The notes under the pieces were generated by a model. That model had not been told where the DNA came from. It made no database searches and saw only the letters and a list, made by a program, of their open reading frames with translations. From NCBI RefSeq assembly GCF_018070075.1, contig NZ_JAGPXE010000002.1, forward strand, positions 558,001 through 622,000: 64,000 nt of DNA, in the 5' to 3' direction. The number at the start of each line of letters is the position of its first letter. Within the stretch, counting starts at the first letter, position 1. The DNA is from Saccharopolyspora endophytica. Its GTDB lineage: Bacteria; Actinomycetota; Actinomycetes; Mycobacteriales; Pseudonocardiaceae. Positions 6,611 to 44,910 of this stretch are shown here, piece by piece. The translations under genes were made by a program, and so were the position numbers.

Positions 6611-6730
6611 CCGATCTCAGTGGAAATCGGAACCCTGATTTCCGCTGAGATCGGGGCCCGGACTTCCGTGGGAATCGGAGTCCCGAGTTCCACTGAAATC
6701 GGGGACCTGAGTTCCGTGGAAATCGGGGAC
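6611..6730. repeat. Tandem array of five 24-bp palindromic units (family A)
   Basis: Five units start at 6611, 6635, 6659, 6683 and 6707, an exact 24-bp period. Each is a 20-bp imperfect palindrome of the form CCGATTTC-CACT-GAAATCGG plus a 4-nt variable linker. Substitutions between units are frequent, yet the two-fold symmetry is mostly kept. The array lies between the convergent ends of coaE and a DUF402 gene. The same unit recurs at 38.9 kb with the same period. Function unknown. Confidence 0.85.
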
Positions 6731-35380: not shown

Positions 35381-35833
35381 CTAGAGCAGGACGCGGGAGA
35401 GGAACTCCGCGACGCAGGCGGGCTTGTCGGCGCCCTCGATCTCCACCGTCGCCTTGACCGCCAGCTGGAGGCCGCCCTCGATCTCGGTGGCGCTGATCAG
35501 CTCCGTCGTCGCGCGCACCCGCGCGCCGACCGGGACGGGGGAGGGGAACCGGACCTTGTTCAGGCCGTAGTTGATGCCCATCTTGACGTTGTCGACCCGG
35601 AAGGTCTCCGAGTTCAGCTTCGGCAGCAGGCTCAGCGTCAGGAAGCCGTGCGCGATCGGCGTGCCGAACGGCCCCTGCTTCGCCTTCTCGACGTCGACGT
35701 GGATCCACTGGTGGTCGTGGGTCGCGTCGGCGAAGGTGTTGACCTGCTCCTGCGTGATGGTCAGCCACTCGCTGGTGCCCAGCTGCTCGCCCTGGGCGGC
35801 GAGGATCTCTTCCTTGCTGGTGAAAACCTTCAT
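35381..35833 (-). CDS. MaoC-like (R)-enoyl-CoA hydratase
   Basis: 150 residues with the hot-dog hydratase signature: FADATHDHQWIHVDVEKA carries the catalytic Asp/His pair, then GPFGTPIAHGFLTLSLL. It hydrates an enoyl-CoA. It is the last gene of a minus-strand run; its ATG overlaps the acyl-CoA dehydrogenase stop by 4 nt, which suggests it acts on the product of the dehydrogenase pair. Confidence 0.9.
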   Translation of the reverse strand: MKVFTSKEEILAAQGEQLGTSEWLTITQEQVNTFADATHDHQWIHVDVEKAKQGPFGTPIAHGFLTLSLLPKLNSETFRVDNVKMGINYGLNKVRFPSPVPVGARVRATTELISATEIEGGLQLAVKATVEIEGADKPACVAEFLSRVLL

Positions 35834-36927
35834 GCGCTTCCTCCGGGAAGGTCGACGAGTTCGGCGATGCGGGCCCGGTGGGCCTCGGCGATGCCGAAGG
35901 TGAGCTGGGAGCTCTTCGCGCGCCCCAGGTACAGGTGCGCGGGGTGCTCCCAGGTCATGCCGATGCCGCCGTGCAGCTGGAGGTGCTCCTCCGCCGCGTG
36001 GACCACCAGGTCGGAGACGTAGGCCTGCGCCATCGCCACCGCCAGCTCCTCGTCGGTGCCCGAGGCCAGCGCGTCGGAGGCGTTGCGGGACACCGCACGC
36101 GCCGTGCTGATCTTGGTCCACAGGTCGGCCAGCCGGTGCTTGATCGCCTGGAAGGAACCGATCTGCCTGCCGAACTGGTAGCGGGTCTTGCCGTACTCCA
36201 CGGTGGTGTCCAGGCAGTGCTGGGCGAGCCCGACCTGCTCGGCCGCCAGCATCCCCGCCGCCGTGAGCAGCGCGTGGCGCAGGACCCGCTCCGCCTCCGC
36301 GCCGGAGGCGATGCGCTCGCCCGCGGTGCCGTCGAGGACGAGCGTGCCGAAGCGGCGGGTCAGGTCCAGCGGCGTCGCCTGCGTGCGGGTGGCCTCCGAG
36401 GTCTCCACCAGGTACAGCGCCGAACCGTCGGTGTCGACGGCCGGAACCACCGCGTAGTCGGCCACTTCCAGGTCCACCACGGCCGACACCGTGCCGGTCA
36501 GCGCCGAGTCCTCGGCCTTCACCGACTGCGGGAACGACGCGTGCGGAACGGTCGTCAGGCCGACCGCGAGGGTGCCCACCTTCGAACCGTCCACCAGCTG
36601 CGGCAGCGCGGTCTCCTCGGCGCAGCCGGCCAGCGCCGCGGTCGCCAGCACGGTGCTCAGGAAGGGCACCGGAGCGATCGCGCGGCCGACCTCCTCGGCC
36701 ACCACCGACAGCTCCCGAGCCGTGGCGCCGGAACCGCCGAGCTCCTCGGGCACCAGCAGTCCCGCCAGGCCCATCTCACCGGCCAGCGACCGCCACAGGT
36801 CCAGGTCGTAGGGCTCGTCGGTCTCGACGCGGGCCAGGACTGCCGTCCAGTCGCAGCGGTCCCGCAGCACCCGGCGCACGCCGGAGCGCAGGTCCTCCTC
36901 GACCTCGGTGTAGAGCAGGTCCGTCAT
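35830..36927 (-). CDS. Acyl-CoA dehydrogenase subunit, probable partner of the next gene
   Basis: 365 residues, shorter than the usual ~385. YQFGRQIGSFQAIKHRLADLW and HGGIGMTWEHPAHLYLGRAK resemble the ChsE/FadE28-type subunits of mycobacterial heterotetrameric dehydrogenases, in which two different half-active subunits build each FAD site. It overlaps both neighbours by 4 nt (ATGA), supporting fixed stoichiometry with the 395-residue dehydrogenase upstream. Start ATG at 36925-36927. Confidence 0.85.
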   Translation of the reverse strand: MTDLLYTEVEEDLRSGVRRVLRDRCDWTAVLARVETDEPYDLDLWRSLAGEMGLAGLLVPEELGGSGATARELSVVAEEVGRAIAPVPFLSTVLATAALAGCAEETALPQLVDGSKVGTLAVGLTTVPHASFPQSVKAEDSALTGTVSAVVDLEVADYAVVPAVDTDGSALYLVETSEATRTQATPLDLTRRFGTLVLDGTAGERIASGAEAERVLRHALLTAAGMLAAEQVGLAQHCLDTTVEYGKTRYQFGRQIGSFQAIKHRLADLWTKISTARAVSRNASDALASGTDEELAVAMAQAYVSDLVVHAAEEHLQLHGGIGMTWEHPAHLYLGRAKSSQLTFGIAEAHRARIAELVDLPGGSA

Positions 36928-38111
36928 CGCGGCAGCTCCTTCCACGGCTTGTCCTTGTCGGTGCGGACCTCCGGCGGCAGCCCGAGGATCCGCTCGGCGA
37001 TGACGTTGCGCAGGATCTCGGTCGTGCCGCCCTCGATCGTGTTGCCCTTGGCCCGCAGGTAGCGGAAACCGGGCCCGCGCTTGGTGAAGTCGGTGAACTC
37101 CGGCTGGCGGAACGTCCGGTCGTCGTAGGCCAGGCCCTCCTCGCCCAGCAGCTCCAGCTGGTAGCCGGTGAGGCGCTGGTTGAGCTCGGCGAAGGCCGAC
37201 TTGATCGCCGAACCCTCCGGTCCCGGCTCGCCGACGGCCATCTGCTGCCGCAGGCGGATGCTGGCCAGCCGCAGCGCCTCGGCCTCCACCCACAGCTCCA
37301 GCAGCCGGTCGTGCAGGCCCGGCGTGCGCTTCTCCGGGTGGCTCCGCCACTGCTCGGCGGCGGCACCGATCAGGCCGCTCTCGCGCGGGGGCGTGCGGCC
37401 GCCGATGGCGACGCGCTCGTTCATCAGCGTGCCCAGCGCCACCGACCAGCCCTGCCCGACCTCGCCGAGCCGCTGCGAGTCGGGGATGCGCACACCGGTC
37501 AGGAAGACCTCGTTGAACTCGGCCTCGCCGGTGATCTGCCGCAGCGGGCGGACTTCCACGCCCGGCGCGGTCATGTCGCAGATGAAGTAGGTCAGGCCCT
37601 TGTGCTTGGGCTGGTCCGGATCGGAGCGGGTCACCAGGATCGCCCACCGGGCCTGGTGCGCCAGCGACGTCCACACCTTCTGCCCGTCGACGACCCACTC
37701 GTCACCGTCGCGCACGGCCCTGGTCGACAGCGCCGCGAGGTCCGAGCCCGCGCCCGGTTCGCTGAAGAGCTGGCACCAGATCTCCTCACCTGTCCACAGC
37801 GGACGGAGGAAGCGCGTGCGCTGCTCGTCGTCGCCGAAGCGCAGGATCGTCGGGGCCGCCATGCCCAGGCCGATGACGTTCATGTGCGGTTCGTTGTCCG
37901 GTGCGCCCGCCTCGGCGAACGCGGCGTCGACGTCGGCCTGCAGCTCGCGGGCCGCGCCCAGACCGCCCAGTCCCTCCGGGAAGTGCACCCACGCCAGCCC
38001 GGCGTCGAACCGGGCGCGCAGGAACTCCAGCCGGTCGGTGCTCTTCGGGTCGTGCGCGGCCAGGAACTCCTGGACCCGGCCGCGCAGCTCGGTGGCGTCC
38101 ACGGTGCTCAC
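36924..38111 (-). CDS. Acyl-CoA dehydrogenase subunit (395 aa)
   Basis: Full-length fold: CQLFSEPGAGSDLA (FAD contact), VDGQKVWTSLAHQA, and GNTIEGGTTEILRNVIAERILGLP at the C-terminus with a Glu where the catalytic base lies in this branch. This is the FadE26/FadE29-like type that pairs with a shorter subunit. GTG start overlapping the SDR stop (GTGA). Together with the 365-aa gene it likely forms an alpha2beta2 enzyme for a bulky or branched acyl-CoA. Confidence 0.87.
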   Translation of the reverse strand: MSTVDATELRGRVQEFLAAHDPKSTDRLEFLRARFDAGLAWVHFPEGLGGLGAARELQADVDAAFAEAGAPDNEPHMNVIGLGMAAPTILRFGDDEQRTRFLRPLWTGEEIWCQLFSEPGAGSDLAALSTRAVRDGDEWVVDGQKVWTSLAHQARWAILVTRSDPDQPKHKGLTYFICDMTAPGVEVRPLRQITGEAEFNEVFLTGVRIPDSQRLGEVGQGWSVALGTLMNERVAIGGRTPPRESGLIGAAAEQWRSHPEKRTPGLHDRLLELWVEAEALRLASIRLRQQMAVGEPGPEGSAIKSAFAELNQRLTGYQLELLGEEGLAYDDRTFRQPEFTDFTKRGPGFRYLRAKGNTIEGGTTEILRNVIAERILGLPPEVRTDKDKPWKELPR

Positions 38112-38863
38112 GCCTTCGGCCCGCCGGCCACGTAGATGACCTGGCCGGAGACGAAACCGGAACGCTCGTCGGCGAAGAACGAGACGGTGTTGGCGATGTC
38201 ATCGGGCTTGCCCGCCCGCGCGACCGGGATCTGCGAGATCGCGGCGGTGGTGAAGTCCTCGAAGGACATGCCGACGCGCTCGGCCGTCGCCTTGGTCATG
38301 TCGGTGGCGATGAAGCCCGGGGCGATCGCGTTCGCGGTGATGCCGAACTTGCCCAGCTCGATCGCCAGCGTCTTGGTCAGGCCCTGCAGACCGGCCTTGG
38401 CCGTGGAGTAGTTGGCCTGGCCGCGGTTGCCCAGCGCCGAGGTCGACGACAGGTTCACGATCCGGCCCCACTTGGCCTCGACCATGTGCTTCTGCACCGC
38501 CCGGGCCATCAGGAACGAGCCGCGCAGGTGCACGTTCATCACGGTGTCCCAGTCGTCCTCGGACATCTTGAACAGCATGTTGTCGCGCAGCACGCCGGCG
38601 TTGTTGACCAGCACGGTCGGTGCGCCCAGCTCGGCGGCGACCCGGTCGACGGCGGCCTGCACCTGCTCGGCGTCGGCGACGTTGGCCCCGATCGCCAGCG
38701 CCTTGCCGCCACCCGCCTCGATCGCCGAAACGGTGTCACCGCAGGCCTTCTCGTCGAGGTCGATGACGCCTACGGAGAACCCGTCTTCGGCCAGCCTCTT
38801 CGCGGTGGCGGCGCCGATCCCGCGAGCGGCACCGGTGACGATCGCGACACGACTCTCAACCAT
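38108..38863 (-). CDS. FabG-like SDR (3-oxoacyl reductase/3-hydroxyacyl-CoA dehydrogenase)
   Basis: 251 residues: TGAARGIG, NNAGVLRD, the catalytic Ser in NLSSTSALGNRGQ, and YSTAKAGLQG with Tyr/Lys. The PGFIATDMT motif is typical of FabG-like enzymes. In a degradation operon it would oxidise the hydroxyacyl-CoA made by the MaoC hydratase. ATG 38863 with GAGGAG seven bases upstream is preferred over TTG 38869. First gene of the four-gene unit, downstream of the 24-bp repeat array. Confidence 0.9.
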   Translation of the reverse strand: MVESRVAIVTGAARGIGAATAKRLAEDGFSVGVIDLDEKACGDTVSAIEAGGGKALAIGANVADAEQVQAAVDRVAAELGAPTVLVNNAGVLRDNMLFKMSEDDWDTVMNVHLRGSFLMARAVQKHMVEAKWGRIVNLSSTSALGNRGQANYSTAKAGLQGLTKTLAIELGKFGITANAIAPGFIATDMTKATAERVGMSFEDFTTAAISQIPVARAGKPDDIANTVSFFADERSGFVSGQVIYVAGGPKA

Positions 38864-38913
38864 GGACAACTCCTCGCTGCTCTGTGCGTTTCCAACCCCG
38901 CCCCACCGAACCC

Positions 38914-39009
38914 CGGATTTCCACTGAAGTCCGGTTCCCGGTTTCCACTGAAGTCCGGTTCCGGATTTCCACTGAAGTCGGGTGGCCGATTTCCACTGAA
39001 ATCCGGTCG
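38914..39009. repeat. Tandem array of four 24-bp palindromic units (family A)
   Basis: Units begin at about 38914, 38938, 38962 and 38986, with the TTT of each core at 38918, 38942, 38966 and 38990: an exact 24-bp period. The core TTTCCACTGAAGTCCGG is nearly invariant in three units, and the fourth is the symmetric form CGATTTCCACTGAAATCCGG. This is the same family as the array at 6.6 kb. It lies between the 3' end of an acyl-CoA dehydrogenase gene and the 5' end of the SDR gene on the same strand. Confidence 0.87.
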
Positions 39010-39058: not shown

Positions 39059-40276
39059 TTACTTCTTCTTGTACTTGCCGAGCTCGCGGCGGGCCAGGGA
39101 GCGGCGGTGGACCTCGTCGGGACCGTCGACCAGGTGGAGGGTCCGGGCGTGGGCGTAGAGCGCCGCCAGGGGGAACTCCTGGGAGACGCCGCCTCCGCCG
39201 TGGGCCTGGATGGCGCGGTCGACGACCCAGGTGGCGACCTCGGGAACGGCGACCTTGATGGACTGGATCTCGGTGTGCGCGCCCTGGTTGCCGACGGTGT
39301 CCATCAGCCACGCGGTCTTGAGCACCAGCAGCCGGGCCTGCTCGATCTTCACCCGGGACTCGGCGATCCAGTGCTGCACCACGCCCTGCTCGGCCAGCGG
39401 CTTGCCGAACGCGACCCGCTCGGAGGTGCGCCGGCACATCAGCTCCAGCGCCCGCTCGGCCATGCCGAGGGCGCGCATGCAGTGGTGGATGCGGCCGGGA
39501 CCGAGCCGGGCCTGGGCGATCGCGAAGCCCTCGCCCTCACCGGAGATGACGTTGTCCACCGGCACGCGGACGTCGTTGAACACGATCTCGGCGTGACCGC
39601 CGTGGTCGGCGTCGTCGTAGCCGAAGACGTGCATGCCGCGCTTGACCTCGACACCCGGGGTGTCCTTGGGCACCAGCACCTGGCTCTGCTGGCGGTGCCG
39701 CTCGGCGTCCGGGTCGGTCTTGCCCATGACGATCAGGACCTTGCAGCGCGGGCTCATCGCGCCGGAGGAGAACCACTTGCGCCCGTTGATGACGTAGTGG
39801 TCGCCGTCGCGGGTGATGCGCGTGCCGATGTTGGTCGCGTCGGAGGAGGCGACGTCGGGCTCGGTCATGCAGAACGCGGAGCGGATCTCGCCGTCGAGCA
39901 GCGGCTGGAGCCACTGCTTGCGCTGCGCGTCGGTGCCGAACTGCGCCAGCACCTCCATGTTCCCGGTGTCGGGCGCCGCGCAGTTGGTGGCCTCCGGCGC
40001 CAGCTGACCGGAGCGGCCCATGATCTCCGCGAGCGGCGCGTACTGCAGGTTGGTCAGCCCCGCGCCGTGCTCACCGGGCAGGAAGAGGTTCCACAGGCCG
40101 CGCTTGCGCGCTTCGGCCTTGAGCTCCTCCATGATCGGCGGGTGCGCCGACCAGCGGTCCGGTCCTTCGTTCATCTGCTCGGCGAACACCGGCTCGGCCG
40201 GGTAGATGTGCGAGTCCATGAACTCCAGCAGCTGACCGCGCAGCTCCTCGGTTCGTGCGTCGAACGCGAAATCCAT
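39059..40276 (-). CDS. Acyl-CoA dehydrogenase, ACAD10/ACAD11-like
   Basis: 405 residues. [17 protein letters not shown] (FAD contact), [33 protein letters not shown] and the C-terminal [22 protein letters not shown]; the GPDEVH motif replaces EGT-type ends and is typical of the ACAD10/11-FadE36 branch. In the human proteins this domain works with a linked kinase domain on 4-hydroxyacyl-CoAs. Here the kinase gene lies immediately upstream with only 3 bp between. Start ATG at 40274-40276. Confidence 0.9.
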
Positions 40277-40279
40277 CTC

Positions 40280-41317
40280 TCATGCCTCCTTGAGGGTCGC
40301 CAGGCCCTGCGCGACGAGCGGAGCGACCAGGCCACCGACGTGCTCGAAGCCCTCGCCGACGGTCTGGTCGTGGATGAAGCGGTAGTGGATGCCTTCCAGG
40401 ATCACCGCGATCTTGAAGTAGCCGAACGCCAGGTACCAGTCCACATCGGACAGATCCAGTTCGCTGCGCTCGGCGTAGCGGGCGAAGAGCTGCTTGGCGC
40501 TGGGGAATCCGTGCTCCGGCCCGACGCCCTTGGCGATCGGGTTGTTCTCCAGGCCGCTGAAGCCCTCCCAGTACACCGCCAGCAGGCCGAGGTCGGTGAG
40601 CGGATCGCCGATGGTGGCCATCTCCCAGTCCAGCACGGCCTTGATCCGCTGGTCGTCGCCGACGATGACGTTGTCCAGCCGGTAGTCGCCGTGCACGATG
40701 CCCACGCGCCCGCTGGTCGGCACCGAGGCCGCCAGCCGCTGGGACAGCTCGTCGATGCCCTCGACCTCGCGGCTGTGGGAAGCCTTGAGCTGCTTGGTCC
40801 ACCGGCGCACCTGGCGCTCCAGGAAGCCCTCCGGGCGGCCGAACTCGGCCAGCCCCACCGAGGCCGGGTCGATGGAGTGCAGGTCGGCGAGCACGTCCAT
40901 CAGCTGGAAGGACAAGTCCTGGCGCTGCTGCTCGTCGAGCGTCTCGGTCTGCTCGGCGGTGCGGAAGACGGTGCCGCGCACGTACTCCATGACGTAGAAC
41001 GGGGCGCCCAGCACCTCCTCGTCCTGGCACAGCAGCTCGGTGCGCGGCACCGGCACGCTGGTATCGGCCAGGGCGGTGAGCATCCGGTGCTCGCGGCTCA
41101 TGTCGTGCGCGGTGGCCAGCACGTGACCCAGCGGTGGGCGGCGCACGACCCACTCGCGGGTGCCGTCGCCGACGATGTAGGTCAGGTTCGAGCGGCCGCC
41201 CTGCACCAGCTCGCCGGTGAGTTCGCCGGTGACCATGCCGGGCATCTCGACGTCGAGGTACGCCCGCAGCCTGTGCAGGTCGAGGCCGGGCAGCTCGTCG
41301 GGCTCGGGTGCGTTCAC
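40280..41317 (-). CDS. APH-fold kinase, ACAD10/11-kinase-like
   Basis: 345 residues of the aminoglycoside-phosphotransferase fold: GGRSNLTY nucleotide loop, VVRRPP Lys/Arg strand, Brenner motif HGDYRLDNV with the catalytic Asp, and DWEMATIGDPLTDLG for metal binding. Not a resistance gene by context: it sits between HAD hydrolase and acyl-CoA dehydrogenase genes. By analogy with human ACAD11 it may phosphorylate the 4-hydroxy group of an acyl-CoA before elimination. The GTG start overlaps the HAD stop (GTGA). Confidence 0.9.
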   Translation of the reverse strand: MNAPEPDELPGLDLHRLRAYLDVEMPGMVTGELTGELVQGGRSNLTYIVGDGTREWVVRRPPLGHVLATAHDMSREHRMLTALADTSVPVPRTELLCQDEEVLGAPFYVMEYVRGTVFRTAEQTETLDEQQRQDLSFQLMDVLADLHSIDPASVGLAEFGRPEGFLERQVRRWTKQLKASHSREVEGIDELSQRLAASVPTSGRVGIVHGDYRLDNVIVGDDQRIKAVLDWEMATIGDPLTDLGLLAVYWEGFSGLENNPIAKGVGPEHGFPSAKQLFARYAERSELDLSDVDWYLAFGYFKIAVILEGIHYRFIHDQTVGEGFEHVGGLVAPLVAQGLATLKEA

Positions 41318-41997
41318 CTGATCTCCTCGTCTTGCGGTACGGATCCGGTCGGCAGCAGTTCGGCCAGCCGGGTTCGGGTCTCCGCCGGGCCGGTGTGCAG
41401 CACGGCGTGCATGCCCAGGGCGCGGGCGGCGTCGACGTTGGGCGCGCCGTCGTCGACGAAGGCGGTCTGCTCGGCGGGCAGGCCGAGCTGGTCCAGGCTC
41501 ATCCGGTAGATGCTCGGGTCGGGCTTGCGCAGCCCTACCTGGCCGGAGAGGACGGTGGACTCGAACAGGCCCGCCAGCTGCTCCCACGGGTAGGCGTCGA
41601 TGTTCCCCCAGCTGTTGGACAGCAGTGCGGTGCGGATTCCGCGCTCGCGCAGTCCTCGCACCAGATCCAGCATGGCCGGTTCGGGGCGCATCCGCGCGAA
41701 GAGTCGTCCGAGCAGGTCATCGGGTGCGACGGGCTGATCGTCGAGGGTGCGCAGCCGGGCGGCCATGGCCTTGTTGAAGCCGTCGGCGTCGAGCTCCCCG
41801 GTTTCCAGCAGGTGCACGGGCGTGCCCGCGGGCGCGTTGCGGGAGAGCCACTCCTTGAGCGCGGCGGAGAACAGCTCCGGGCGGATCCGCTCCTCGGACA
41901 ACCAGGCGTTGATCGAGTCGCGGGTGGGTGTGGTCAGCACACCTCCGTAGTCGAAGACGACCGCGCGGACGGTCGGGCCGGCAGCACTGGAACCCAT
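41314..41997 (-). CDS. HAD-superfamily hydrolase, ACAD10 N-domain-like
   Basis: 227 residues. Motif I reads VVFDYGGVLT: the nucleophile Asp16 is present, but the second Asp of DxD is Gly18. Motif II LLSNSWG, motif III KPDPSIY and motif IV FVDDGAPNVDAA follow. DxG-type HADs resemble the N-terminal domains of soluble epoxide hydrolase and ACAD10 and may have reduced or altered phosphatase activity. First gene of the HAD-kinase-dehydrogenase operon, with an operator-like palindrome 12 bp upstream of the ATG. Confidence 0.88.
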   Translation of the reverse strand: MGSSAAGPTVRAVVFDYGGVLTTPTRDSINAWLSEERIRPELFSAALKEWLSRNAPAGTPVHLLETGELDADGFNKAMAARLRTLDDQPVAPDDLLGRLFARMRPEPAMLDLVRGLRERGIRTALLSNSWGNIDAYPWEQLAGLFESTVLSGQVGLRKPDPSIYRMSLDQLGLPAEQTAFVDDGAPNVDAARALGMHAVLHTGPAETRTRLAELLPTGSVPQDEEIR

Positions 41998-42008
41998 GGA
42001 CAGGACCG

Positions 42009-42024
42009 TACCGACTAGACGGTA
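42009..42024. promoter_or_regulatory. TetR-type operator upstream of the HAD-APH-ACAD operon
   Basis: TACCG-N6-CGGTA (TACCGACTAGACGGTA) lies 12 bp upstream of the HAD start codon and shares 13 of 15 positions with the site before the acyl-CoA synthetase (29.77 kb). The placement is right for repression. Confidence 0.6.
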
Positions 42025-42345
42025 TGTCGCGCTAGCCCCAGTTCGGAGGGGCCGGTCGGGCCGGTGCGCGGGGGTGATGTCGGGGTCGCCCGGATGGAGG
42101 CCACGCGATCACGGCGGGTCAGCAGACGTCCGATTCATCCCGATCGAACGGGGCTGGTCAGGCCAGTCGCGCTCGTCGAGGTGGCGGTTGCGAACGCTCG
42201 TTTCGCCCAATTCGGTGACGCTGGGTCAAAGGTGGTAAGTCCGGCAAAAACGTCGTCGTTGACCTGGTATTTACTCGTGGGTAGGTTACGAATTCGCCGC
42301 GCGGACAGCACTTTTCGACTCCCACCGATCGTGCAGGAGAGGCCA
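42025..42345. other. Divergent intergenic region with the promoter of the secreted protein
   Basis: About 320 bp without a convincing gene. The right half contains the consensus-like promoter at 42259-42287 and a ~50-nt leader. The left end carries the HAD-operon operator. Confidence 0.45.
42259..42287 (+). promoter_or_regulatory. Consensus-like promoter of the secreted protein
   Basis: TTGACC (42259-42264) and TAGGTT (42282-42287) with a 17-bp spacer, one of the best housekeeping-type promoters in the window. Predicted transcript start near 42294, 50 nt before the ATG. Confidence 0.65.
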
Positions 42346-42981
42346 ATGAAGTCCGTCCTCAGTGGAAAGCGCGCCGCCATCGCGGCCGCCTTCGCCGCAA
42401 CCGCAGCCCTCGCCGTCGCCCCGCAGGCGGTGGCGGCCCCCTTCGACATCAACTTCGACTGCAACGGTGATGCGCCGACGGGCGCCCAGCAGTTCACCCT
42501 GCAGCAGAGCACCGATGTCTCGGCTCCCGAGACCGTCGCTCCCGGAGCGGCTTTCGACGTCGTCGTCGACCCGGCCGTGAACACCATCCCGGGCGAGGTC
42601 AACGGCAACACCGTCAAGGAGGTCGGCGGTTTCGACCTGAGGCTCCCGATCCCGGCGAACTCCACCTTCGTCTCGGCCGAACTGGCCGGTGGCTCGAACC
42701 TGGGCCCGAACCCGCCGACCATCAACGTCGAGAACGGCGTCGCCACGGTGCACCTCGACGGCCCGATCGCCGGAGGCAGCGAGTTCGAGCTCCCCACCAT
42801 CACCGTGCACCTCACCGCGGGTGAGTCCGGCACGATCGAGACCAAGCTGGCGGGGACCAGCTACGAAGACCCGGGCCTGACCTTCACGGCGGTCGTGTCC
42901 TCGATCATCGGCGACGTCGACGTCCCGTCGGCGTGCTTCCCGAACCCCAACCCGACGCTGACCACGACGACCATCGGCTGA
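42346..42981 (+). CDS. Secreted protein of unknown function (211 aa)
   Basis: A clear signal peptide: MKSVLSGKR, a hydrophobic stretch (about 10-27) and an AVAAP cleavage site near residue 30. The mature part is rich in Thr, Val, Pro and Asn with a beta-strand pattern and only two Cys (near the mature N-terminus, and in SACFPNP near the end), suggesting one disulphide linking the termini. I do not recognise a named family; it resembles exported immunoglobulin-like proteins of actinomycetes. ATG start with CAGGAGAGG upstream. The last 121 bp are overlapped antisense by the BenE gene. Confidence 0.75.
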   Translation: MKSVLSGKRAAIAAAFAATAALAVAPQAVAAPFDINFDCNGDAPTGAQQFTLQQSTDVSAPETVAPGAAFDVVVDPAVNTIPGEVNGNTVKEVGGFDLRLPIPANSTFVSAELAGGSNLGPNPPTINVENGVATVHLDGPIAGGSEFELPTITVHLTAGESGTIETKLAGTSYEDPGLTFTAVVSSIIGDVDVPSACFPNPNPTLTTTTIG

Positions 42982-44796: not shown

Positions 44797-44857
44797 TTCG
44801 AATTTCGCGCGAAATTCGAAGCCGAAAGTTCGGCCTCGAATTTCGCGCGAAATTCGA
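44797..44857. repeat. Cluster of three palindromes spaced 19 bp apart
   Basis: Two copies of the perfect palindrome GAATTTCGCGCGAAATTC (extended to 24 bp at 44797-44820 and 22 bp at 44836-44857) flank a smaller hairpin GCCGA-AAGT-TCGGC (44821-44834). Centres are near 44808, 44827 and 44846. Starting 4 bp after the XRE stop, it could act as a terminator, but the symmetric AT-rich core without a T-tract and the duplication are unusual. No family resemblance to the 24-bp arrays. Confidence 0.8.
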
Positions 44858-44910
44858 ACGGCCCCACGCGGTCGGGTGTGTTGTGCCCCGGTTGTGGGGC
44901 AGGAAAGCGA

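Follow-up and report, generated by a model that had tools for sequence, protein, structure and literature searches.

A HAD-led gene set with an LvaA/ACAD11-like kinase and an ACAD10/11-branch dehydrogenase in Saccharopolyspora endophytica, and possible roles of its HAD protein

Gene layout and the known systems

The window, i.e. the whole stretch of DNA that was analysed, comprises 64,000 nt of Saccharopolyspora endophytica (Pseudonocardiaceae; GCF_018070075.1, NZ_JAGPXE010000002.1, positions 558,001 to 622,000 of the forward strand). The genes and features considered here are listed in the order in which the minus strand is read.

42009..42024, read on the minus strand: near-perfect palindrome TACCGTCTAGTCGGTA, 11 nt upstream of the HAD ATG
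41997-41314, minus strand: HAD-like hydrolase, 227 aa; Pfam Hydrolase/HAD_2
41317-40280, minus strand: APH-family kinase, LvaA/ACAD11-like, 345 aa; Pfam APH, E = 1.1e-56
40276-39059, minus strand: acyl-CoA dehydrogenase of the ACAD10/11/LvaC branch by score and motif (ACAD*), 405 aa; Pfam Acyl-CoA_dh_1/M/N
38913..39007, between ACAD* and the FabG-like gene: 24-nt repeat in four head-to-tail copies
38108..38869, minus strand: FabG-like SDR, start TTG at 38869 or ATG at 38863
36924..38111, minus strand: acyl-CoA dehydrogenase a (ACADa), GTG start, 4-nt overlap with the FabG-like gene
35830..36927, minus strand: acyl-CoA dehydrogenase b (ACADb), 4-nt overlap, without a middle-domain match
35381..35833, minus strand: MaoC-like hydratase, 4-nt overlap

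The sequence-only reading described overlapping or abutting HAD, APH and ACAD genes on the minus strand, and the coordinates and Pfam matches confirm this, with 39059-41997 as the exact limits of the trio. The kinase has a GTG start that overlaps the HAD stop by 4 nt (GTGA), and ACAD* begins 3 nt past the kinase stop. The gene set probably extends beyond ACAD* to 35381, including the FabG-like gene, the two further dehydrogenases and the MaoC-like hydratase, and would be co-transcribed. The palindrome is a candidate operator; the pattern searched has a single occurrence genome-wide.

Human and mouse ACAD10 have HAD, kinase and dehydrogenase in the same order, with a HAD that has one Asp of the DxD motif (PMC11342911, PMC2223070), but as one polypeptide instead of three genes, and ACAD10 itself is cut between kinase and dehydrogenase (PMC11342911). 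ACAD11 consists of a fused kinase and dehydrogenase without a HAD. Among the 509 ORFs with a match no fusion of two of the three domains was found. The proposal that the trio is an unfused counterpart of ACAD10 agrees with the dehydrogenase, the kinase and the gene order, but it is less new than it seemed, since the unfused bacterial kinase and dehydrogenase LvaA and LvaC and their B. pseudomallei orthologues have been published and assayed (PMC11342911, PMC12440821), and bacterial proteins similar to ACAD10 received a passing mention in 2008 (PMC2223070). The 4-hydroxy fatty acid chemistry of ACAD10 and of the unfused pair is already known; the HAD is less known. The lva operon of Pseudomonas putida resembles the window set in having separate genes for the kinase LvaA and the ACAD10/11-branch dehydrogenase LvaC, acting in a 4-phosphoacyl-CoA route (PMC11342911, PMC12440821). 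It differs in that the ACAD10 HAD is described as having no homology to any lva protein (PMC12440821), while the window set is led by a HAD gene and has FabG, ACADa/b and MaoC genes behind ACAD*.

Kinase and dehydrogenase

Compared with solved chains, the kinase scores 211 bits to 9o56 and 184 bits to ACAD11, against 49 bits for the next unrelated kind. The catalytic D211 and N216 and the CoA-contacting R75 are kept as in ACAD11, the residue roles used for both proteins being those given in PMC12440821. The score to ACAD11 and the kept residues bear out the assignment of the kinase as LvaA/ACAD11-like.

The dehydrogenase is closest to the ACAD11 chains 8v3u (470 bits), 8v3v (468) and 2wbi (464) and to 4hr3 (459), with the next ACAD kind at 170 bits. 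It shares with ACAD11 the HCMR motif (residues 265-268, with R257 and R262 upstream) and a catalytic Asp in place of Glu, D384, the aligned position of which is Asn in 8v3v. The residues of ACAD11 that contact the 4-phospho group are kept in the window pair. HCMR occurs in 166 of 175 ACAD* ORFs and is absent from the 11 other ACAD loci of the same genome that were compared, as well as from ACADa and ACADb. Only one of the 52 ACAD matches in the genome is of the ACAD10/11 kind (932 vs 173 bits). Grouping of the dehydrogenase away from ACAD10/11 had been named beforehand as grounds for dropping the proposal; the scores (464-470 vs 170 bits) and the HCMR motif instead place it within the ACAD10/11/LvaC branch.

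Conservation of the linkage and phosphatase genes at related loci

In a survey of 150 Pseudonocardiaceae genomes, tabulated for the HAD-bearing genomes plus the congener G747 only, all 58 HAD-bearing genomes have the order HAD>APH>ACAD on one strand. Measured between aligned ends, the HAD-APH distance is -4 to 136 nt in 57 genomes and 1447 nt in one, and the APH-ACAD distance is 3 to 352 nt. Because it is kept in 58 of 58 genomes, this order is no chance arrangement, and its likeness to the ACAD10 domain order holds well beyond the window. The idea that a HAD-first order is unusual was rejected on the same survey. G747 retains the kinase and ACAD*, yet none of its proteins passes the HAD threshold used. 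ACADb lies 3' of ACAD* in 50 of 65 Pseudonocardiaceae genomes examined, counting matches with E up to 3e-103 and including three genomes without an ACAD* match in the list used. A FabG-like gene adjoins the HAD in three loci (L192, L193, L283).

The HAD-APH-ACAD order is not general. In the wider sample of 296 Actinomycetota genomes, where adjacency was assessed for 36 genomes with a best HAD E up to 2.1e-29, the HAD adjoins the kinase in 22 of the 35 other than the window's, and outside Pseudonocardiaceae the order is mostly APH>HAD (21 of 22 adjacent pairs, the window's excluded, with one on opposite strands). The HAD lies away from the kinase in 13 of the 36, in some cases at contig ends. 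The kinase is present in 118 genomes of the sample, the dehydrogenase in 107 and both in 102; 76 of the 118 have no HAD at E 1e-20. The HAD occurs in 45 genomes, together with the kinase in 42 and with ACAD* in 34, counts not corrected for kinship. Of 113 actinobacterial ACAD* loci, read for about 9 kb on each side but in places shortened by contig ends, 82 have neither kinase nor HAD, 24 the kinase only, five both and two the HAD only.

The notion that the HAD tracks the kinase and not the dehydrogenase was weakened by the ACADs of four loci (L188, L189, L255 and L266), in which HCMR is present although their scores are only 193-263 bits. The 320-bit and 1e-100 thresholds miss such ACADs, so that the 16 genomes with a kinase and no ACAD* are not all real.

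Outside the Actinomycetota the HAD profile has no match in 82 kinase loci, the 80 named ones being the best 80 for one query. At 19 of the 82, among them loci of Burkholderiales, Alcanivorax and Deinococcus, a histidine phosphatase unrelated to HAD (PF00300 in the two representatives taken to Pfam) lies on the same strand as the kinase and at most 2 kb away; 16 of the 19 have ACAD* within 4.5 kb. These sets resemble the window set in having a phosphatase gene beside the kinase and differ in its unrelated fold. Since they come from the best 80 for one query and many are Burkholderiales, the 19 loci are not independent. One further, weak histidine phosphatase match lies 5.4 kb from the kinase on the other strand. 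All-against-all clustering of neighbouring ORFs was blurred by shadow ORFs, and the Pfam comparison covered ten proteins, of which nine represented clusters. By profile, neither phosphatase occurs within 4.5 kb at 63 of 82 non-actinobacterial and 24 of 37 actinobacterial kinase loci; therefore no nearby phosphatase is obligatory. Conversely, at 20 HAD loci of other phyla (19 in a Pseudomonadota sample, one in Vicinamibacteraceae) neither kinase nor ACAD* was found within about 9 kb.

The HAD protein and its possible role

Motif I of the HAD reads FDYGG (D16-Y-G18), so the Asp16/Gly18 variant noted earlier is correct and the second Asp of DxD is absent. Motifs II, III and IV are present (S127, K158, D182/D183) and are invariant or nearly so across 18 aligned proteins. 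When matches shorter than 150 residues are left out, DxGGV is found in 37 of the 39 remaining HAD matches; the other two are distant HADs (28-29 bits). The top NCBIfam model is TIGR02247 (HAD-1A3, epoxide hydrolase N-terminal-like phosphatase), at 88.2 bits and thus under its curated cut-off of 125.4. ACAD10 was not among the solved chains and loci that the comparisons returned, and the window HAD is a candidate orthologue of the ACAD10 HAD. The solved chains nearest to the HAD profile are the N-terminal domain of soluble epoxide hydrolase (sEH, 86 bits), a lipid-phosphate phosphatase (PMC11676941), and E. coli YihX (81 bits). Both have other partners and substrates, and sEH has DxD in the alignment. 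YihX carries DLG in the corresponding position although its annotation is that of a phosphatase, and DxG alone does not, therefore, mean an inactive protein. An AlphaFold model of the window HAD from its single sequence alone reached a pLDDT of 39. A scan of viral contigs found no relatives of the HAD. Three Streptomyces plasmid loci carry related DxG HADs in other gene contexts. One related DxG HAD is encoded directly 3' of a gamma-butyrolactone synthase gene; the gamma-butyrolactone synthase pathway runs via phosphate esters. One related plasmid operon also has a PTE-family gene and a CoA ligase.

The genes, the clade of the dehydrogenase by score and motif, the kept residues and the conserved linkage form the observed basis for a model of the gene set. 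In this model the kinase would phosphorylate the 4-hydroxyl of a 4-hydroxyacyl-CoA. The dehydrogenase would then remove the phosphate via an oxidation-elimination-reduction cycle, giving a 2-enoyl-CoA, and the MaoC, FabG and ACADa/b proteins would process the chain further. It is very probable, judged from sequence, that the kinase and dehydrogenase take this route. The HAD would act as a check on the phospho-intermediate, most likely as a phosphatase of the 4-phosphoacyl-CoA, its wrong stereoisomer or the free phospho-acid, and so prevent trapping of CoA and phosphate; for this part the chances appear about even. The explanation as a whole, in which the set feeds 4-hydroxyacyl-CoAs into beta-oxidation, seems to us equally balanced. 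Counted against it are the kinase loci without a HAD (76 of 118), the 20 HAD loci of other phyla without a kinase nearby, and G747.

Four points suggest a phosphatase. The catalytic motifs are kept except for the second Asp, where YihX has the same change; the nearest solved relatives are the sEH lipid-phosphate phosphatase domain and YihX; an unrelated histidine phosphatase adjoins the kinase at 19 of 82 non-actinobacterial loci; and a related DxG HAD adjoins the gamma-butyrolactone synthase gene. Against it stand the missing Asp, which is the usual acid/base, and the negligible activity of the ACAD10 HAD on 4-phospho-C6-CoA (PMC11342911).

The best-placed alternative is that the HAD has little or no catalytic activity and acts as an allosteric brake on the kinase, to which it would bind as a subunit. 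Such regulation was argued for ACAD10, whose HAD had negligible phosphatase activity, and the D48A substitution raised product formation (PMC11342911). DxG is constant among group members with motif I in view, and the tight linkage and the GTGA overlap would fit a protein complex. However, a purely structural subunit would have no need of the nucleophile Asp, the Ser, the Lys and the DD pair, all of which are kept; DxG also occurs in the annotated phosphatase YihX, and the unrelated phosphatase adjoins the kinase in other phyla. This alternative is considered rather unlikely, and a HAD phosphatase that limits the 4-phosphoacyl intermediate is favoured over an ACAD10-type brake.

A second alternative concerns the substrate of the pair, which might be another hydroxylated acyl-CoA, e.g. 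of a branched, cyclic or sterol-like acid, instead of straight-chain 4-hydroxy acids. The gene set includes the ACADa/ACADb pair, which resembles heteromeric ACADs, and no CoA ligase or lactonase was seen among those neighbouring ORFs that were annotated. Yet the 4-phospho contacts of ACAD11 are kept, and the PTE-family gene and CoA ligase of the related plasmid operon fit a lactone-to-4-hydroxyacyl-CoA route, and we regard another substrate as a little less likely still. That the HAD acts on some other phosphate ester of the pathway or cell, independently of the pair, would suit the homologues away from the kinase (13 of 36 genomes, some at contig ends, and 20 of 20 loci of other phyla), the Streptomyces plasmid loci and the homologue beside the gamma-butyrolactone synthase gene, but is improbable in view of the 58 of 58 linkage in Pseudonocardiaceae and the kinase in 42 of 45 HAD-bearing Actinomycetota genomes (kinship not corrected).

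Within the phosphatase reading, the HAD and the proteobacterial histidine phosphatase could be non-homologous replacements for one damage-control activity, the conversion of 4-phosphoacyl-CoA (hydrolysed or wrong-handed forms included) back into the hydroxy compound. This is put forward tentatively, at somewhat below even chance. If true, the ACAD10 HAD would be more than an allosteric brake, namely a phosphatase that has degenerated or is very selective. For that domain, a brake was suggested in one study (PMC11342911), and the HAD was left out of the work in the accessible part of another (PMC12440821). A conserved free-standing bacterial HAD may help to explain the first part of ACAD10, since a separate gene can be deleted, mutated or swapped with the kinase polypeptide untouched. 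A direct test by complementation is offered by the histidine phosphatase found next to the kinase at other loci. In a tree of 66 HADs, from which matches below 150 bits or 170 matched residues were left out, many forks are weak and the YihX branch is long, but the proteins of other phyla stand apart from most actinobacterial ones.

Gene arrangement and intergenic repeats

Three minus-strand genes encoding a HAD-type protein, an APH kinase and the acyl-CoA dehydrogenase ACAD* lead a putative operon, followed by a FabG-like SDR, two further dehydrogenases and a MaoC protein. Pfam matches agree with the assignment of every gene from HAD through MaoC. As the sequence-only reading had it, the first three genes overlap or abut and the HAD is a DxG variant, with Asp16 and Gly18 both readable in the sequence.

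Genes of the putative operon and its surroundings
42064-42981: divergent ORF ahead of HAD
also ahead of HAD: BenE-family transporter gene
41997-41314, minus strand: HAD, first of three head-to-tail genes
41317-40280, minus strand: APH kinase, GTG start inside the HAD stop, 4-nt overlap
40276-39059, minus strand: ACAD*, start 3 nt past the kinase stop
38869-38108, minus strand: FabG-like SDR
38111-36924, minus strand: ACADa, acyl-CoA dehydrogenase, 4-nt overlap with the FabG-like SDR
36927-35830, minus strand: ACADb, acyl-CoA dehydrogenase, 4-nt overlap with ACADa
35833-35381, minus strand: MaoC, 4-nt overlap with ACADb
past MaoC, opposite strand: AbgT-family transporter gene

The gap of about 190 nt between ACAD* and the FabG-like gene holds four copies of a 24-nt repeat (38918-39003, core TTTCCACTGAARTC, no mismatch); two additional, diverged copies lie at 6613 and 6687. 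A palindrome, TACCGTCTAGTCGGTA, is located immediately ahead of the HAD start (42009-42024); a search of the 7.17-Mb genome with its pattern gave a single match, and the site is a candidate operator for a putative regulator. A 23-nt palindrome, TCGAATTTCGCGCGAAATTCGAA, is present twice at 44798-44858 with a spacing of 38 nt, and a search within the window gave no further copies.

The kinase and dehydrogenase pair

PMC11342911 and PMC12440821 show ACAD10 and ACAD11 to phosphorylate 4-hydroxyacyl-CoA and then to remove the phosphate, the route cited in the sequence-only reading; both papers describe LvaA and LvaC of P. putida as doing the same job as separate proteins. Either half of ACAD10 can be replaced by B. 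pseudomallei orthologues (PMC11342911). The assignment of the dehydrogenase to the ACAD10/11 branch was borne out by score and motif: ACAD* scores 470, 468, 464 and 459 bits against ACAD11 (8v3u, 8v3v, 2wbi) and 4hr3, as compared to 170 bits for the next kind of dehydrogenase among solved chains, and carries HCMR (265-268) and D384. The chain 4hr3 is labelled 'putative acyl-CoA dehydrogenase' and is presumably mycobacterial; 8v3v is an Asp-to-Asn mutant of ACAD11. ACAD* is the sole protein of its kind in its own genome (932 bits to itself, 173 for the best of 51 other matches).

Together with R257 and R262, HCMR and D384 of ACAD* occupy the positions named R626, R631, H634, R637 and D753 in mouse ACAD11 by PMC12440821, which calls HCMR specific to ACAD10/11 and essential and also describes the Asp-to-Asn mutant seen in 8v3v. 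HCMR was found in 166 of 175 ACAD* ORFs of the examined loci, the other nine being variant, cut or missed. A DGP-type catalytic stretch matched the search pattern in 161; the remaining 14 comprise 11 with a near form that has the Asp and three without any in view. Divergent dehydrogenases at four loci (L188, L189, L255, L266; 193-263 bits) still carry HCMR and possibly form a further sub-branch of the ACAD10/11 kind.

Among solved chains the highest scores of the kinase are 211 bits for 9o56, labelled aminoglycoside phosphotransferase, 184 and 180 for ACAD11 and 181 for 3dxp; the next chain reaches 49 bits. By our reading of the alignment, its D211, N216 and R75 pair with D220, N225 and R86, the mouse ACAD11 kinase residues described in PMC12440821. 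From clade and residues we infer that kinase and dehydrogenase would follow the ACAD10/11 pathway.

Distribution and the role of the HAD protein

Of 150 genomes of the window's family, 143 have the kinase at E up to 1e-50, 133 have ACAD* at E up to 1e-150 and 58 have the HAD at E up to 1e-45, and all 58 HAD-bearing genomes have HAD, kinase and ACAD* in this order on one strand with gaps below 2 kb. Of the family's 65 strong ACADb rows, 50 place this gene up to 6 kb downstream of ACAD* in the same orientation. The congener G747 has kinase and ACAD*, the HAD being absent at threshold. Across 296 genomes of the phylum, 107 have ACAD* and 118 the kinase, with 102 having both. The HAD was found at E up to 1e-20 in 45 genomes, 42 of them with the kinase and 34 with ACAD*; these counts depend on thresholds and treat related genomes as independent. 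Neither kinase nor HAD is near 82 of the 113 ACAD* loci of the phylum. The HAD lies within 131 nt of the kinase in 23 of the 36 phylum genomes with the strongest HADs: 21 have the kinase before the HAD on the same strand, the window has the reverse order and one has opposite strands. The other 13 do not show such proximity, several lying at contig ends.

The HAD retains D16, S127, K158, D182 and D183, with G18 replacing the second Asp of DxD. Its best NCBIfam model, TIGR02247, stays below cut-off (88 of 125 bits), and among solved chains its profile comes closest to the soluble epoxide hydrolase N-terminal phosphatase domain, at 86 bits, followed by YihX at 81 bits. Of 39 HAD rows, 37 have DxGGV as motif I, and the remaining two are distant HADs (28-29 bits). 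Judged from sequence, DxG by itself is no proof of inactivity, because E. coli YihX, an annotated alpha-D-glucose-1-phosphate phosphatase, has DLGN at this position.

Two roles can be considered. In the first, which we prefer, the HAD would be a phosphatase that relieves the phospho-intermediate. This is suggested by the retained catalytic residues, by the closest solved relatives, which are phosphatases, one of them acting on lipid phosphates (PMC11676941), and by an unrelated phosphatase that adjoins the kinase in other loci. The latter is a histidine phosphatase on the same strand within 2 kb of the kinase in 19 of 82 loci. The 82 comprise 80 named loci, largely from Pseudomonadota and the best of at least 562 confirmed, together with two kinase-bearing plasmid loci; one further weak match is on the opposite strand at a distance of 5.4 kb. 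Two representatives match PF00300, and Arg-His is kept in all 20 members of the profile seed set, one of them actinobacterial. The HAD profile found no match in these 82 loci, although a very distant HAD could escape a profile built from actinobacterial sequences. Of 37 actinobacterial kinase loci, 12 have a HAD within 4.5 kb, one has a histidine phosphatase and none has both; eight loci were chosen for carrying a HAD, so that 12 is no survey figure, and four of the other 29 have one. Related-group HADs occur in 32 of 299 genomes of a Pseudomonadota sample (E up to 1e-20), and in 20 such loci outside the phylum (19 from this sample, one from a Vicinamibacteraceae genome) neither kinase nor ACAD* was found within about 9 kb.

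In the second, the HAD may act as a brake, as proposed for ACAD10; the sole direct experiment, done on the animal protein, speaks for this reading. According to PMC11342911, the D48A substitution in the ACAD10 HAD increased product formation, the domain had negligible phosphatase activity ('data not shown') and a regulatory role was proposed; PMC12440821 leaves this domain unevaluated. Both sets of observations would be explained by a mixed case, in which the HAD is a slow phosphatase and in addition a binding partner of the kinase.

ACAD10 was described in 2008 as hydrolase-kinase-dehydrogenase in several animals, with similar proteins in bacteria (PMC2223070), and the gene order shared with the operon may have a convergent origin. 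Among titles and abstract openings, mostly without subscription papers, no paper was found that treats HAD, kinase and ACAD genes as a bacterial operon or reports a histidine phosphatase next to the kinase.

Related loci on plasmids and elsewhere

A plasmid of Tsukamurella tyrosinosolvens carries, as consecutive genes, nearly the same set as the window: HAD, FabG, MaoC, kinase, ACAD*, two more dehydrogenases, a PTE-family gene and a CoA ligase. PTE-family enzymes include lactonases, and the gene would fit a gamma-lactone route at this single locus. For the Tsukamurella HAD (L192, 7064) the annotation places the start past motif I, and FDYGGVLT is present in the open frame upstream. An R. koreensis plasmid has SDR-HAD-FabG-kinase-ACAD*, and one of R. 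opacus has SDR-HAD-FabG-MaoC-kinase, with ACAD* not found within the 12.6 kb examined. In genome G062 (L073, 7682-10411) the order is SDR-HAD-MaoC-ACAD* without a kinase in between, the nearest listed kinase being about 29 kb off. On a plasmid of Streptomyces sp. NBC_00388 (L196, 4853-13203) a DxG HAD adjoins an AfsA-like gene about 6 kb from kinase and ACAD*, and on pFiD188 (L282, 3003-4678) a DxG HAD immediately follows the gene for a ScbA/BarX gamma-butyrolactone synthase.
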